Assembly: GCA_040755095.1 (NCBI GenBank)
Contig: JBFMBH010000019.1
Span: forward strand, 1 to 42,144
Origin: Thermodesulfobacteriota bacterium
Lineage (GTDB): Bacteria; Desulfobacterota; Desulfobulbia; Desulfobulbales; JBFMBH01
Length of the DNA stretch: 42,144 nucleotides
Reading direction: 5' to 3'
Position 1 is the first letter of the stretch, and every line of letters begins with the position of its first letter. A model generated the notes under the pieces. That model was not told the DNA's origin. It did not search any database and saw only the letters and a program-made list of their open reading frames with translations. The position numbers and the translations under genes are program-made. Below are positions 3,483 to 40,948 of this stretch, in pieces.

Positions 3483-6400
3483 CTAGACAACCTGGTCCGG
3501 GGGGGGCGGACACTGGGGGCCCAGAACCTCCCCGATCCGGCGGCTGGAGGCGGCCAGGGAGACCCGGAGCTCTTCGACCAGGGCGGACAGGGTGTCGCGG
3601 TCGGCCTTTTCGGCCGCCTCTTCCAGTTGGCCGGCCACCGTGGCCACGGCCTCGGCCCCGATGTAGGCAGCCGCCCCTTTGAGGCCGTGGGCCTCCCGGC
3701 CGATCCCTTCCCGGTTGCCCTGGCCCAAGTCGGCCTGCAAGCGGGCCACTGTTTCTTGCCCGCTCGTCAGGTATGCCTCGCAGAGGGCCTTCGTCTTGTC
3801 CTTGCCCAAGAGGGCCAACAGGCTGACCAGCCGCTCCCGGTCCAGGCCGCCCGCGCCCCCGGGGTGGGGCGGCTCGTCCCAGGCGGGCAGGCAGGCGGCG
3901 ACCGGGTCCAGCAGCCGGCCGTGGAGGGAGGCGAAGAGCTCGTGCAGCCGCTGGATTTGCAGGGGCTTGGCCAGGGCGCCCTCCATGCCGGCGTCCAGGC
4001 AGGCCTGGATCTCCGCTGGGCCGGCGTTGGCGGTCAGGGCGATGATGGGCAGAAAGGCATCCTGGTCGCGGATGATCCGGGTCGCCTCCAGACCGTCCAT
4101 CTCCGGCATGCGGACATCCATCAGCACCAGGTCGTAATCGCCGTTTGCCACCGCAGCCACCGCCTCCCGGCCGTTGGCCACCGCCACCACATCGTGGCCG
4201 AGCCGGCGCACCATCTCGCAGGCCACCATGCGGCTGACCTCGTGGTCATCGGCCACCAGAACCCGGAAACGCCGGCCCTGGACGGCTGGCGCCGCCGGGC
4301 CGGACGGACCGGCGGCGGCGGTCGCCTCGGCCGAGCGCACCAGGCCCAGGCTGACGGCCATGCCCCGGAACAGGCTCTTGTGGAGCACCGGCTTGGTGAG
4401 GATGGTCTCCCCCGCGAGGTCCGGATAGATGCTGAGCAGCTCGGCCACCGCCACCGGGGAAAGAAGGAGGGCGGGCAGGCGGCGGAGGTTGGGGTGGCCC
4501 CGCACCTCCCGCAGCAGAGCCGGTCCAGGCACATCGGCCATCAGAACGTCGGCGAGCAGGAGATCGTAGGGCCGGCCGCTGGCCGCCGCCTCGGTCAAGG
4601 CCGCCATGGCCTCGCCGACCGCCGCCGCCGGCCGCACCGTCATGCCCCAGCCGGCCAGCACCTGCTCCAGGATCTCCCGGCTCATCGGATGGCCGGCCGC
4701 CACCAGGATCCGGCGGCCCTGGAGGAGGATGGCGGGGACCTCCCGATCCGCCGTCTGCTCGCCGGCCACGGTGCCCAAGGGGATCGCGAACCAGAAGGTG
4801 CTGCCCCGCCCCGGGGCGCTGGCAAGACCGATCTCGCCCCCCATGGCCTCCACCAGGCCCTTGCAGATGGCGAGGCCCAGCCCGGTGCCGCCGGTGCGGC
4901 GCGCCGGCGAGGCGTCCACCTGGTGGAAGCGCTGGAAGAGCCGGGACTGGGCCTCCGGCGGGATGCCGACCCCGGTATCGTGGATCGCAAAGCGGATGCG
5001 CTCCTCGCCGCCAGCGCTCCCCTGGCCATCCACCCGGATCCACACCCCGCCTTGTTCCGTGAACCGGATGGCATTGGCCACCAGGTTCATGAGGATCTGC
5101 CGGAGGCGCCCGGGATCGCCCACAAAGCTGCGCTGGCAGTCCGGGGAGACCAGGTACAGCAGCTCGAGACCGCCGCTGGCGGCCCGGGGGCCCAGGACCA
5201 TGACCACCCCTTCCACCAGGTCCAGGAGGCGGAACTCCTCCCGGGCCAGCTCAATCCGGGCCGCCTCCAGCTTCGAGTAGTCCAGAATATCGTTGATGAT
5301 GGTGAGCAGGGCCTCCCCCGACCGGCGGATGGTCTCGGCCAGGTGGCGCTGATCCGGATCCAGCCGGGAATCGAGAAGGAGATCCGTCAGCCCAATGACC
5401 CCGTTCATGGGGGTGCGGATCTCGTGGCTCATGGTGGCCAGGAACTCGGACTTGGCCTGGGCGGCCGCCTCGGCGATATCCTTGGCCGCCAGGCTTTCCC
5501 GCACCCCGGCCTCGCGCATCAGGAGCGCGCTGCGGAAGGCCTCCACCCCCTCGCCCAGCCGGACCATCTCCCGGGCATCCCCCAGGGGGGGCAGCCGGGT
5601 TTCCAGGTCGCCGTCCTTGAAGGACTGGAGGGCACGGATGATGCCCTCGACGGGTCGCACCAGCCGGGTCAAGACATAGACCATGGTGAAGACGATGACC
5701 CCTGCGGCCGCAAGGGTCCCGCCCCAGGACAGGGCCAGGACCGCGGTGGCCTGCCGCCGTAGGCTGGCGATGCGGGCCCGGAGCAGCCGGGCCAGACCGG
5801 TATCCAGCTCGGCGATCGCCGCCAGCACCCGCTCCTGCTGCAGGACAAAATCCCGCTCCTCCACCCCGTGCTCCCGGGCGGGCGGCGCCGCCAGAATGGT
5901 CTCCAGGATGGGGAGCACCTCGTAGATCACGGTGCCCACCACCCGATCCAGGGATGCCTGCAGCTGACTGCTGCCGACGTCCGGTCCCATGCGCCGCATC
6001 CCCGCAAGCAGAACCCGGATCTCGGCCATGGCCTGGAGCAGGCGCACCGATTCCGGCCCGGGCCGGCCCCGGCCGAGCCGGGCGCCGATGTGGGCGTTGC
6101 TGGTGGCGGTGAGGATCGCCCGCTCCAGATTGACGGCATCGAGCTGCAGCTGGCGCAGCTGGACGATCCGGGACTCGCCGATGAAGCCCTTGGGGGCATC
6201 CAGGTAGACCAGGTCGACCAGAAGGATGTGGAGGGTCTCCACCAGCCGGCCAGCCCGGCCCACCCAGCTCCAGACCTGCTCGTGATCCGCCGGCGCCCCC
6301 CCCTCCATGCCCAACAGGGCGAAGATCCCCTGGCGGGCATCCAGAAGCTCCGCCACCTCCCGCCGCAGATGGTCCAGCTCCGGCCGCTCCTGGGCCTGCC

Positions 6401-7059: not shown

Positions 7060-8811
7060 ATGGATGGGTATGCCTGGCTGCAGACCGGGCTGTTCTTTGC
7101 GGTGCTGCTGGCGCTGGTGAAGCCCCTGGGCGGGTTCATGGCCAGGGTCTACCAGGGGGAGCGCACCTGGCTGTCCCCGGCCCTTGCCCCCGTCGAGAGC
7201 CTCATCTACCGGATCTCCGGGGTGGCGCCGGAGGAGGAGATGGACTGGAAGCGGTATGCCCGGGCCATGCTGCTGTCGAACCTGCTGCTCTTTGCCGGCC
7301 TTTTGGCGCTCCTTCTTCTCCAGCATCGGCTGCCGGGAAACCCCCAGGGACGGCCGGGCTTCTCCTGGCCACTGGCGCTTTGCACCGCGGTGAGCTTCAC
7401 GACCAACACCAACTGGCAGGCCTACAGCGGCGAGGCGGCAAGCTACCTGACCCAGATGCTGGGGCTCACCGTCCACAACTTCCTCTCCGCCGCCACCGGC
7501 ATGGCCGTGGCCGTGGCCCTCATCCGCGGCGTTGTTCGGCGCCAGACCGCCACGGTTGGCAACTTCTGGGTGGACCTTGTCCGCGGCACCCTCTACATCC
7601 TGTTGCCCCTCGCCTTCCTGGCCGCCATCGTCCTGGTCTCCCAGGGCGTGATTCAAAGCTTCCGCCCCTACCGTCCGGTGCCGCTCCTGGAGCCGACCCG
7701 CTCTGAGCAACCGCGACCGGACGCGGCCGGCAGCCCGGTGACCGGAACCGTCGCAGTGCCGGGGGTGCTGCTGCCCATGGGGCCGGTGGCCTCCCAGGAA
7801 GCGATCAAGGAGCTGGGCACCAATGGCGGCGGCTTCTTCAACGCCAATTCCGCCCACCCCTTCGAGAACCCGACCCCGCTGTCCAACCTCCTGGAGATCC
7901 TGCTCATCCTCCTCATCCCCAGCAGCCTCACCTGCACCTTCGGGGTCCTGGTCGGCAACCCCCGGCAGGGCTGGGCGCTCCTGGCAGTCATGCTCCTGGT
8001 GCTGGTGGCCTCGTTCGCTCTGCTGCAGGGGCTGGAAGCGGCCGGCAATCCGCAGCTGGCCCAGCTGGGGGTGGCGGGCGGCAATCTCGAGGGCAAGGAG
8101 GCCCGCTTCGGGCTGGCGGCCAGCTCCCTTTTCACGGTGTCGACCACAGGCACCTCCTGCGGCGCCGTGAGCACCATGCATGACTCCCTGACCCCGCTGG
8201 CCGGGATGATCCCGTTGGGCCTCATCCTCCTGGGCGAGATCATCTTCGGCGGCGTGGGCTCGGGCCTCTACACCATGCTGGCCTTCGCGGTCATCGCCGT
8301 CTTTGTCTCCGGCCTCATGATCGGCCGCACGCCGGAGTATCTGGGCAAGAAGATCGAGGTGCGGGAGATGTGGATGGCGATCCTGGCCATCCTCACGGCA
8401 GGGGTCCTGGTTCTGATCGGCTCCGGCGTCGCCATGCTCACCCCGGCAGCGACGGCCGCCATGGCCAACCCCGGCGCCCATGGCCTCACCGAGGTGCTCT
8501 ACGCCTTTGCCTCCATGGCCAACAACAACGGCTCCGCCTTCGCCGGCCTCAACGCTGCCACCGATTTCTATACCCTGCTGGGCGCCTTGGTCATGCTCCT
8601 GGGCCGCTACGTGCCCGCGGTGGCCGTGCTGTGCCTGGCCGGCGGCCTGGCCGAAAAGAGATACGTGCCGCCCAGCATCGGCACCCTGCCCACGGATCGG
8701 GCGCCCTTTGCCCTGTGGCTTCTGCTCGTCATCCTCATCGTCGGCGCCCTGACCTTCTTCCCGGCCCTGGCCCTGGGACCGGTGGCCGAGCACCTGCGTC
8801 TGATCGGCTAG
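7060..8811 (+). CDS. kdpA: Potassium-transporting ATPase, K+-binding subunit KdpA
   Basis: 583 residues, slightly longer than the E. coli protein (557). It is the channel-like membrane subunit of the high-affinity KdpFABC pump. Selectivity-filter segments typical of the SKT superfamily are visible: [11 protein letters not shown] (about 110), [20 protein letters not shown] (about 255), [15 protein letters not shown] (about 365) and [12 protein letters not shown] (about 485), each between hydrophobic helices. The ATG has a strong Shine-Dalgarno. No kdpF-like short hydrophobic peptide is found just upstream. The gap to kdpB (8812-8967) is unusually long for this operon and contains a repeat hairpin. 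Confidence 0.97.
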
Positions 8812-8843
8812 ATCCGGGCCGAGGAGCGCGACGCTCCCCCTGG

Positions 8844-8946
8844 CTCCCACAGCTCCCACAGCTCCCATGGCTCCCATGATTCCCATAATTCCCATAAGCA
8901 GCCTCGCTCTCATGGGAGTTATGGGAATCATGGGAATGATGGGATC
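8844..8946 (+). repeat. 9-bp tandem repeats forming a long hairpin between kdpA and kdpB
   Basis: Six tandem nonamers related to CTCCCATGA run from 8844 to 8897. Four copies of the reverse-complement nonamer (CATGGGAAT type) run from 8911 to 8946. Pairing 8861-8896 with 8911-8946 gives 30 of 36 matches, 32 counting G-U pairs in RNA, around a 14-base loop. The hairpin ends about 20 bases before the kdpB ATG and 10 before its ribosome site (GGAGAAG, about 8957-8963). It may limit read-through from kdpA to kdpB, stabilise a cleavage product, or be a mobile repeat. I saw no other copy in the window. Confidence 0.85.
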
Positions 8947-8967
8947 AAAAAACCTTGGAGAAGCCCT

Positions 8968-11037
8968 ATGAGCAAGCACCCTCCGCAGCCGATCTCCCTG
9001 TTCAGCGCCCAGATCCTGCGGCCGGCGCTGGTGGAGGCGTTCCGGAAGCTCGACCCGCGCACCCTGTGGAAGAGTCCGGTGATGCTCTCGGTGGAGGTCG
9101 CAAGCTGCATCACCCTCATCACCTTCGTGCTGTCCCTCCTGGACCGGGTGGCCGAGCCGGCCTGGTTCACCGGCCTGGTGGCGCTCTGGCTCTGGATGAC
9201 CGTGCTCTTCGCCACCTTTGCCGAGGCCCTGGCCGAGGGCCGCGGCAAGGCGCGGGCTGCCTCGCTCCGCAAGACCCGCACCGAGGTCATGGCCAAGCGC
9301 CTTGCCCAGCCGTCCTTCGACGCCGCAGTCACCCAGGTGCCGGCCCACCGGCTGCGGGTGGATGACTGCATCCTGGTGGAGCCCGGAGAGCTGATCGCCG
9401 GCGACGGCGAGGTGGTGGCCGGCGCGGCGCTGGTGAACGAGGCGGCGGTGACCGGCGAGTCGGCGCCGGTGGTGCGCGAGTCGGGCGGCGACCGCAGCGC
9501 GGTCACCGGCGGCACCAAGGTCATGGCCAACGCCATCATCGTGCGCATCACCGCCAACCCTGGCGAGACCTTCCTCGACCGGATGATCTCCCTCATCGAG
9601 GGTGCCAAACGGCGCAAGACCCCCAACGAGGTGGCGCTGGAGGTGCTGCTCATCGCCCTCACCGTGGTCTTCCTCCTGGTCTGCGCCAACCTGAGCCCCC
9701 TGGCCATCTCCAGCGTCCGGGCAGCCGGCCAGGGGACGCCGGTCTCCTTGACCATGCTCGTGGCCCTGTTCGTCTGCCTGGCGCCCACCACCATCGCGGC
9801 CCTTCTGCCGGCCATCGGCATCGCCGGCATGGACCGGCTCTTCCAGAAGAACGTCATCGCCCTCTCCGGCCGGGCCATCGAGGCCGCCGGCGACGTCAAT
9901 GTGCTGCTGCTCGACAAGACCGGCACCATCACCCACGGCAACCGGGAAGCGGTGGCCTTCATCCCGGTGGGGGGACATGGGGAGCGGCAAGTGGCCGAGG
10001 CGGCCCTCCTGGCCTCCATGACCGACGAGACCCCGGAGGGACGGAGCATCGTCAAGCTCGCCACCCAGAAGTACGGGATCAAGCCGGCGCCCCTGCCGCC
10101 GGACGCCCGGTCCGTCCCGTTTGCCGCCGAGACCCGGCTGTCCGGCATCGATGCCGGGGGCAAGCGGTTCCGCAAGGGGGCGGCGGAATCGGTGGTGGCC
10201 TTTGCCAGGCAGGCAGGAGGACGCGCCGTCGTGGCCGGGCTGACGGACGCGGTGGACGCCATCGCCCGGGCCGGCGCCACCCCGCTCGCGGTCTGCTGCG
10301 ACCAGGAGATCCTGGGCGTCATCAACCTCAAGGACATCATCAAGAGCGGGATCCAGGAGCGGTTCCAGCAGCTCCGGAGCATGGGGATCAGAACCGTGAT
10401 GATCACCGGCGACAATCCCCTGACCGCCGCGGCCATCGCCGCCGAGGCCCAGGTGGACGACTTCCTCGCCCAGGCCCGGCCCGAAGACAAGCTCAAGCTC
10501 ATCCGGGAGAATCAGGAGGCCGGGCTCATGGTGGCCATGACCGGCGACGGCACCAACGACGCCCCGGCCCTGGCCCAGGCGGACGTGGCGGTGGCCATGA
10601 GCACCGGCACCCAGCCGGCCCGGGAGGCCGCGAACATCATCGACCTGGACTCGAATCCCACCAAGCTCCTGGACATCGTCGAGGTGGGCAAGCAGATCCT
10701 CATGACCCGGGGCAATCTCACCACCTTCAGCATCGCCAACGACATCGCCAAGTACTTCGCGATCGTCCCGGCCGCCCTGGTCTCCATCTATCCGGAGCTG
10801 GGGGCGCTCAATGTCATGGGGCTGGCCAGCCCGGAGAGCGCCATCCTCTCCGCCGTCATCTTCAACGCCATCGTCATCCCGCTCCTGGTGCCGCTGGCCC
10901 TCAAGGGCACGAAACTCCGGCCCCTGCCGGCGGAAAGGCTGCTCATCCACAACCTCGTGGTCTTCGGCCTGGGCGGCATCGTCGCCCCGTTCATCGGCAT
11001 CAAGGCCATCGACCTTCTGGTGGGGCTGTTCGTCTGA
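8968..11037 (+). CDS. kdpB: Potassium-transporting P-type ATPase, catalytic subunit KdpB
   Basis: 689 residues, the usual length. KdpB is the ATP-hydrolysing P-type subunit (class IA). Motifs: actuator TGES in AVTGESAPV (about residue 170), membrane segment with APTTIAALLPAIGIAG (about 270), phosphorylation motif DKTGTITHGN (about 315), nucleotide-binding FRKGAAE (about 398), hinge MTGDGTNDAPAL (about 528) and C-terminal membrane helices. The serine of TGES, the site of inhibitory phosphorylation in the E. coli enzyme, is conserved. Start ATG 8968 has GGAGAAG a few bases upstream, directly after the repeat hairpin. kdpC follows after 42 bases. Confidence 0.97.
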   Translation: MSKHPPQPISLFSAQILRPALVEAFRKLDPRTLWKSPVMLSVEVASCITLITFVLSLLDRVAEPAWFTGLVALWLWMTVLFATFAEALAEGRGKARAASLRKTRTEVMAKRLAQPSFDAAVTQVPAHRLRVDDCILVEPGELIAGDGEVVAGAALVNEAAVTGESAPVVRESGGDRSAVTGGTKVMANAIIVRITANPGETFLDRMISLIEGAKRRKTPNEVALEVLLIALTVVFLLVCANLSPLAISSVRAAGQGTPVSLTMLVALFVCLAPTTIAALLPAIGIAGMDRLFQKNVIALSGRAIEAAGDVNVLLLDKTGTITHGNREAVAFIPVGGHGERQVAEAALLASMTDETPEGRSIVKLATQKYGIKPAPLPPDARSVPFAAETRLSGIDAGGKRFRKGAAESVVAFARQAGGRAVVAGLTDAVDAIARAGATPLAVCCDQEILGVINLKDIIKSGIQERFQQLRSMGIRTVMITGDNPLTAAAIAAEAQVDDFLAQARPEDKLKLIRENQEAGLMVAMTGDGTNDAPALAQADVAVAMSTGTQPAREAANIIDLDSNPTKLLDIVEVGKQILMTRGNLTTFSIANDIAKYFAIVPAALVSIYPELGALNVMGLASPESAILSAVIFNAIVIPLLVPLALKGTKLRPLPAERLLIHNLVVFGLGGIVAPFIGIKAIDLLVGLFV

Positions 11038-39973: not shown

Positions 39974-40948
39974 TTATGATCCGCCTCCCCCCGACTCCGA
40001 CAAGCCTTCAGCGCGCAGCTTCCGCACCTCCTCCACCGACAACCCGGTGCTGGTGGCAATCGCCTCGTCGTCCAATATCCCCAGCAGCCTGGACGCCACC
40101 GCCAGCTGGGTCTCACGACGACCCTGGGAAAGACCTTGGGAAAGACCTTGGGAAAGACCCTGCTCAAGACCCTGGGCCAACCCCTGCTCAAGACCCTTCT
40201 TCCTTCCGATCCGCTCCACACTGGATACATACGGCATGGTCGTTTCCTCCTCGAACGCCACCAGCTGCTGAAAAAATCCCTGCTCCAGCTCCTCCGGCAG
40301 TTGCATCAGCCAGTCGATGAAACGAAAAAGATCGATCACCTGCTGCCGAGCATACCCCCGGTCGTAGAGCCGACGCACCAGATCGAACTTCCACCGCGCC
40401 CGTTCGATCGCTGCATCCCGCGTCTCCCGGGCCTTCAGATGCGCCATCACCACCACCGCGAAAGGATTGCGGTCCTGCTCCAGGGCCTCCCAGCGGTCCG
40501 CGTAGTCCAACACCTTCGCCACCGGGAAGCGGAAGCCCAGCTCGCAGCCCCACAGCTCGTATCCGTACCGGTCCGGGCGCCAGTCGGCCCGGTCATCCGT
40601 CAACACCGCGCAGCTCATCACCCGGCGATCATAACGGTCGAAGATCCGGTAGTTGTACACATACATCCGCTTGGCAAAGACCTCCTGGGGCTGGCCCTGG
40701 ATCTCCGGATGCACCAGCACCCAGGCCTCGCCGCCGTCTCGGCGCCACACCTGGGCCAGCTTGTCCGCCAGCCGCCGGCCAAGCTTGGCGTCCCGGGTCA
40801 CCTGCCGCAGCTCCTTGTCCAGGAAGACATGGCCCCGGGACCAGTCGATGCCGCCATGGGCCACGGGGAAGAAGAAGGCCATGAATTCCGGAAAGTATCG
40901 GGTCAGGATCTCCTTCCACGGCGTATCGTAATCAGCGGATGAAGGCAT
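39974..40948 (-). CDS. Rpn-family recombination-promoting nuclease / putative transposase
   Basis: 324 residues from ATG 40948, chosen for GCGAGGAGCCC just upstream; 40963 is an alternative. The N-terminus DTPWKEILTRYFPEFMAFFF and VLVHPEIQGQ (about residue 85, the PD-(D/E)XK-type E-x-Q core) identify it. The middle holds MYVYNYRIFDRYDRRVMSCAVLTDD and FPVAKVLDY; a helical region with YDRGYARQQVIDLFRFIDWLM follows. The tail has four-residue repeats (KGLEQGLAQGLEQGLSQGLSQG), then LSVEEVRKLRAEGL. Rpn proteins cut DNA and raise recA-independent recombination in E. coli, and some act as phage-defence toxins. The gene shares promoter and tail with the deleted copy at 28446-28948. Confidence 0.85.
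   Translation of the reverse strand: MPSSADYDTPWKEILTRYFPEFMAFFFPVAHGGIDWSRGHVFLDKELRQVTRDAKLGRRLADKLAQVWRRDGGEAWVLVHPEIQGQPQEVFAKRMYVYNYRIFDRYDRRVMSCAVLTDDRADWRPDRYGYELWGCELGFRFPVAKVLDYADRWEALEQDRNPFAVVVMAHLKARETRDAAIERARWKFDLVRRLYDRGYARQQVIDLFRFIDWLMQLPEELEQGFFQQLVAFEEETTMPYVSSVERIGRKKGLEQGLAQGLEQGLSQGLSQGLSQGRRETQLAVASRLLGILDDEAIATSTGLSVEEVRKLRAEGLSESGGGGS
40125..40200 (-). repeat. 12-base tandem repeat in the Rpn tail
   Basis: Plus-strand units of the form GGGAAAGACCTT occur in tandem near 40125-40160, followed by related units with CTGCTCAAGACC. They encode the GL(S/E)QG repeats. Exact units near 40127-40160 make copy-number change by slippage likely. Confidence 0.7.

Follow-up and report, generated by a model that had tools for sequence, protein, structure and literature searches.

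We find that the hairpin of repeated nonamers between kdpA and kdpB in a Thermodesulfobacteriota bacterium is probably a gene-less ("solo") copy of an element that consists of inverted tandem-oligomer arrays and is associated with S23 genes. In several bacterial phyla, inverted arrays surround or interrupt S23/four-helix-bundle genes (TIGR02436/PF05635 and TIGR04258, which has two domains) far above their frequency in other DNA. The stretch analyzed is 42,144 nucleotides long (the window), and its features around the hairpin are as follows:

7060 to 8811, plus strand: kdpA, the upstream neighbor (TIGR00680, 713 bits, cut-off 387.7)
8823 to 8837, plus strand: small separate hairpin GGAGCG-CGA-CGCTCC in the interval between kdpA and the array (sequence; paired in the fold)
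8845 to 8898, plus strand: 5′ arm, six tandem nonamers TCCCAYNNN (sequence and unit search)
8899 to 8911, plus strand: loop of 13 nt separating the two arms (sequence and folds)
8912 to 8944, minus strand: 3′ arm, four inverted nonamers, ATGGGA on the plus strand (sequence; pairs with the 5′ arm in the folds)
8957 to 8960, plus strand: GGAG, likely kdpB ribosome-binding site (sequence and spacing only)
8968 to 11037, plus strand: kdpB, the downstream neighbor (TIGR01497, 938.8 bits, cut-off 527.9)

The original prediction described tandem nonamers followed by inverted nonamers inside the kdp operon. We confirmed both sets, six units beginning TCCCAC or TCCCAT at 8845, 8854, 8863, 8872, 8881, and 8890 (a 9-bp pitch) and four ATGGGA units at 8912, 8921, 8930, and 8939, with a gap of 13 nt. 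The hairpin was also placed correctly before the kdpB ribosome site, as the likely site, GGAG, is 7 nt upstream of the kdpB ATG (8968). In profile searches, kdpA, kdpB, and kdpC all passed their NCBIfam cut-offs, and the kdpA stop and kdpB start are 156 nt apart. Fold prediction, proposed as a check, revealed a hairpin far more stable than expected by chance: RNA from 8820 to 8970 folded with −74.3 kcal/mol, compared to −44.0 ± 3.9 for 200 dinucleotide-preserving shuffles (z −7.85), none of which matched the native energy. In the fold of 8844–8950, the longest uninterrupted helix is 24 bp (39 pairs in total, 4 of them in a separate small hairpin), and the proposed stem of up to 36 bp roughly holds once small mismatches are tolerated. 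The hairpin at 8823–8837 could be part of the array element or independent of it.

An intrinsic terminator at the kdp hairpin was ruled out, as the stem is followed on the plus strand by an A-run instead of a T-run and a pattern scan of 8700–9100 revealed no terminator-like match. The same scan detected no sigma-70-like promoter. Rfam had no match anywhere in the window, and no target-site duplication was visible by eye at 8812–8967. Elsewhere in the window, a tandem repeat of GACCTTGGGAAA/GACCCTGGGAAAGACCCTGCTCAA (12/24 bp) occupies 40120–40197.

We asked how this junction is organized in close relatives, defined by KdpB at least 76% identical (23 rows besides the window, leaving 21 after the duplicates L178, equal to L054, and L179, equal to L051, were dropped). 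In 15 of the 21, the kdpA-kdpB gap was at most 14 nt and mostly 2–6 nt. The nonamer array was found at the junction in none of the 21, which is one of the two observations that the original prediction had named as counting against it. Longer gaps were present in six relatives (L039, L043, L044, L052, L172, and L174). By eye, L039 and L044 carry a GTAG-type palindrome pair, L052 carries a different inverted repeat, and the 341-nt junction of L172, from the TCCYAT-rich genome G020, contains several repeats. The CGCAGAT and CTGCGG arrays that also occupy kdp junctions were absent from every S23 locus among those checked. Because the junction is tight in most relatives, lacks the array in all of them, and in some holds other hairpin repeats, we conclude that the kdp array is an insertion. 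The other repeats further imply that kdpA-kdpB tolerates, and has repeatedly received, hairpin repeats.

The original prediction had also suggested a mobile repeat family, and the genome search that it proposed bears this out. Searching the 4.52-Mb draft genome with three TCCCATNNN units and at most 2 mismatches yielded 74 forward and 73 reverse matches, while the same pattern read backward yielded 0 and 0. The kdp nonamer is thus dispersed over ~50 loci, nearly all intergenic, and array abundance is patchy across lineages and families. The kdp copy fits a TCCYATNNN family, as its 9-bp pitch and core recur at many unlinked sites and the core is also carried by a gene of the four helix bundle suffix type (4helix_suffix, TIGR04258). 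A second dispersed repeat family, GTCCATNNN, is present in the genome. Longer homogeneous TCCCATAAG and TCCCATAGG arrays with several exact units were seen in other phylum members (G387:C1:912731-912799 and G292:C1:57941-58009).

To describe the context of these copies, we used 49 stretches fetched from the genome match places, together with the window. According to a crude gene caller trained on kdpA and kdpB only, 53 of 54 TCCYAT clusters lay between predicted genes, and the 42 with a gene on both sides comprised 29 co-directional, 10 convergent, and 3 divergent pairs; for GTCCAY clusters, 19 of 21 were between predicted genes, with 2 of 19 divergent. Arm order is fixed per family. Among two-armed TCCYAT clusters (n = 36), 33 were TCCC-first, two GGGA-first, and one mixed, while two-armed GTCCAY clusters were GGAC-first in 11 of 11 cases, the order also found in the gene at L183. 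By eye, the two arms are often unlike (TCCCATRRC versus TCCTATAGG), a difference that results in G-U pairs on one strand only. At 25 of 50 loci (L119–L167, for example L128:116-336), the array lies within a composite repeat of ~200 bp, with a direct unit of ~60 bp on both sides. The kdp copy lacks these flanks. At L159, several GTAG-type palindromes beside the composite repeat resemble sequence beside the Y1 transposase gene of L168. A 1-kb repeat shared by L120, L140, L145, and L156 was considered as a transposase and rejected, as the copies at L120, L140, and L145 read as paralogous response-regulator genes.

A PF05635 profile search of the genome revealed three intact genes, each of which carries tandem 9- to 10-mer arrays. 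All three (L182, L183, and L184) pass the cut-offs of both TIGR04258 and TIGR02436. In L184 (also L230), a short TCCYATAGG array lies in the N-terminal coding part; in L183, GTCCAT arrays in inverted orientation flank the S23 domain at both ends; and in L182, a decamer is found in the linker, with an inverted copy past the stop. From reading alone, the L182 gene (L182:1450-2073) is flanked by MlaE-type permease-like and ABC ATPase-like genes. A fourth TIGR04258 copy, at L239, is truncated and had no detectable array; it reads as a remnant whose 5′ half has been replaced by a methyltransferase-like gene (L239:1320-1670). No sequence in the PDB matched the L184 protein. In relatives, every 4helix_suffix subgroup has its own unit. 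The TIGR04258 genes of G185 (L253) and G292 (L265) carry TCCCATGAT-type arrays resembling the kdp units, with GGGA-first arms, while solo copies in the genome studied here mostly have the opposite order.

We quantified this association with a detector that requires three units with at least 6 identical columns (more above period 9) and a period of 7–11 within ~1.2 kb. Arrays were detected at 36 of 47 TIGR04258 loci, with an inverted partner at 20; the remaining 11, including L239, had no detected array. These 47 comprise 18 places (one of them, L238, below the cut-off) and 29 further loci returned from a longer list, and two of them, L266 and L267, have much sequence in common. The 30 ordinary S23 loci that a search of relatives returned, first picked as a negative control for TIGR04258, also had arrays (23 of 30, with an inverted partner at 15), nearly all 7- and 8-mers and typically located upstream of the gene with the inverted array downstream. 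We therefore made controls from kdp-locus and plasmid tiles. Unrelated kdp-locus tiles had arrays in 95 of 1193 cases and inverted arrays in 4, and the Desulfuromonadia-like subset in 16 and 3 of 238. When each upstream region was compared with all 30 downstream regions, a locus's own downstream region was the best inverted match of its upstream array at 16 of the 30 ordinary S23 loci (~1 expected).

Similar results were obtained on named plasmids, for which 16 of 38 records with an S23 match were fetched (hosts Anabaena, Nostoc, Calothrix, Picosynechococcus, Stanieria, Pseudanabaena, Geminocystis, Trichormus, Leptolyngbya, Gemmatirosa, and Azospirillum). Arrays were present at 14 of the 16 S23 loci and a strict inverted partner at 12, and the own downstream region was the best match at 14 (~1 expected). 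Tiles lacking S23 genes from three of the same plasmids had arrays in 9 of 107 cases and inverted arrays in 0. At L298, an AGTAGGG array precedes the S23 gene and CCCTACT units follow directly; this S23 gene sits between two ribonucleotide reductase subunit genes. Others lie inside CRISPR-cas clusters of cyanobacterial plasmids, between cas6 and cas4 (L297 and L306) or cas10 and cmr3 (L304), where inverted arrays of heptamers or octamers adjoin the S23 gene. Phages yielded no ordinary S23 match. One viral contig encodes a 4helix_suffix relative, and the detector found no array in its positions 3501–5000.

We tested a prediction with GTCCAYNNN, which is carried by L183 and related genes: this unit should be dispersed in genomes that contain TIGR04258. 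At least three matches were present in nine of ten genomes with TIGR04258, compared to 0 of 48 without (Fisher 9e-10, with shared ancestry not corrected). Totals in the ten, with at most 1 mismatch, were 81, 29, 24, 16, 14, 6, 6, 3, 3, and 1, while the 48 had at most 2. Some of these matches fall in the 4helix_suffix gene itself (four of the six in G014) or at its remnant (all three in G036). The match between the unit of the gene and the dispersed unit is imperfect. GTCCAY arrays occur in G012 and G033, yet no gene with this unit was found in either genome. For TCCYATNNN, with one mismatch allowed, at least two matches occurred in seven genomes, six of which have TIGR04258; the exception is G015. 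No TCCYAT-bearing gene was found in G020 (39 matches) or G015 (six). In a larger sample of the phylum, scored for exact units, TIGR04258 was present in 7 of 14 genomes with TCCYAT arrays versus 45 of 381 others.

We considered whether a nucleoid or global regulator, either IHF/HU or the S23-type protein, instead binds the arrays as functional sites that selection keeps near regulated genes. The authors of the Geobacter metallireducens study, in the part of it consulted, read paired tandem 7- to 9-mers on opposite strands in this way (PMC2700814), a fixed arm order and pitch would suit a protein footprint, and arrays within genes could allow autoregulation. Nonetheless, this explanation is unlikely, as the kdp insertion is missing from the junction in every close relative examined, array numbers are uneven from family to family, divergent gene pairs, the expected place for promoters, have few copies between them, and the units differ wholly between lineages while the link to S23 persists.

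We judge it improbable, and somewhat more so, that the arrays are REP/REPIN-type or MITE elements mobilized by a transposase, whether Y1 (RAYT) or another. They are small, intergenic, palindromic, and multi-copy, half of the loci examined form the composite repeat, in which direct units of ~60 bp flank the array, and palindromes of the GTAG type lie near one composite locus and near a Y1 gene. However, the genome has three Y1_Tnp genes and none of their loci contains the nonamer array, and we rejected Y1_Tnp/RAYT as the array's partner on this ground. Moreover, the kdp copy has neither a GTAG tag nor composite flanks, and the arrays track S23-type genes instead.

The original prediction had raised control of RNA processing or transcription elongation as one possibility; a control device specific to kdp is very unlikely. 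Here the stem would set the KdpA:KdpB ratio through processing, stalling, or re-initiation, as could be imagined for a very stable stem between both cistrons; for the tandem 7-mer hairpin that separates hupS from hupL in Nostoc-type cyanobacteria, a role in transcript stability or coupling has been proposed (PMC2670836, from the portion consulted). Against such a device, none of the 21 distinct close relatives has the array at its junction, and the array is present beside unrelated genes at ~50 other loci. Least probable of all is growth of the arrays in intergenic DNA by replication slippage and templated inversion, with no trans-acting element: unit number and spacer bases do vary, and quasi-palindromes are known to undergo repair toward symmetry, but this process would not be expected to place an identical unit at tens of unlinked positions, to make the units of genes agree with those of dispersed copies, or to yield inverted arrays at 12 of 16 plasmid S23 loci versus 0 of 107 control tiles.

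A model that we favor is that the kdp hairpin is a solo copy of the S23-associated element. The unit of array, S23 gene, and inverted array would be the gene-bearing form, the S23-type protein would recognize its cognate array or hairpin and promote its spread in trans, and solo hairpins, the kdp copy among them, would be derivatives without the gene. Array, S23 gene, inverted array, and gene-less hairpins of the same unit together resemble an element with non-autonomous derivatives. At the loci examined, we saw neither transposition of the arrays nor target-site duplications or excision products, and the TIGR04258 protein might just as well be a binding protein or a regulator. We know of no function or enzymatic activity for S23p/IVS proteins. 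Six S23 proteins gave weak, below-cut-off scores on the Avd model, and PF05635 is described, in the excerpt consulted, as resembling Avd of diversity-generating retroelements (PMC10053308). At kdp, the array would be largely a passenger that widens the distance between kdpA stop and kdpB start and would remove direct translational coupling. By analogy with 23S rRNA intervening sequences (IVSs), the long RNA stem between the cistrons is a plausible RNase III substrate, and its processing may plausibly be a by-product.

Several known systems share parts of this arrangement, as they are described in those portions of the source papers that were consulted. In Coxiella, the 23S rRNA IVS contains an S23p ORF between inverted repeats that form a 28-bp stem, is cut mid-stem by RNase III, and has been called a selfish element (PMC4990558). 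Array-S23 loci are like the IVSs of Coxiella and Leptospira in having an S23-family ORF between stem-forming inverted repeats. However, IVSs lie in 23S rRNA helices, while the kdp copy lies between two protein genes; the arms described here are tandem oligomer arrays; and the kdp copy has a 13-nt loop and no ORF, with S23 ORFs found between inverted arrays at other loci. Filamentous cyanobacteria have hairpins of 7-bp STRRs, one of them between hupS and hupL, with function unknown (PMC2670836). These are also tandem short-unit hairpins between genes, even between the two subunit genes of one enzyme, and the hupS-hupL hairpin is, by analogy, a close parallel of kdpA-kdpB. Unlike the 7-mers of STRRs, the kdp units are 9 bp. 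The STRR account, in the portion consulted, gives no link to S23, whereas the cyanobacterial plasmid S23 genes analyzed here occur with 7- to 8-mer arrays.

Classes 1–3 of G. metallireducens are multi-copy tandem 7- to 9-mers, paired on opposite strands and read as IHF/HU sites (PMC2700814). They share multi-copy tandem units and pairing on opposite strands with our arrays but differ in unit sequence, a comparison made with sections of the main text. As in REP/REPIN systems with RAYT, dispersed palindromes coexist with a protein gene that has copies of them on both sides; here, however, the partner is an S23-type four-helix bundle and not a Y1 transposase. The defining tag of REP/RAYT, GTAG or CGTC beside the palindrome (PMC3733652, consulted in part), was not found by reading beside the kdp palindrome. 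Among open-access titles and abstract openings, none listed revealed a link between S23-type genes and such tandem arrays, and the unit letters turned up in papers whose titles look unrelated.

More tentatively, and at rather less than an even chance, S23/four-helix-bundle (bAvd-like) proteins may be the trans-acting partners of phylum-crossing mobile elements with inverted-tandem-array ends. Unit length would track protein type (mostly 7- to 8-mers for ordinary S23 and 9- to 10-mers for 4helix_suffix), the cyanobacterial STRRs, the Geobacter "global regulator" sites, and the kdp hairpin would be gene-less relics, and rRNA IVSs would be a specialized branch. With arrays and S23 genes found together, their units in agreement and the backgrounds low, two separate puzzles, the role of S23p/IVS proteins and the origin of the cyanobacterial and Geobacter hairpins, reduce to a single testable hypothesis, that the protein recognizes the array. 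If true, this would explain the unconserved long RNA stems inside operons such as kdp, hup, and cas.
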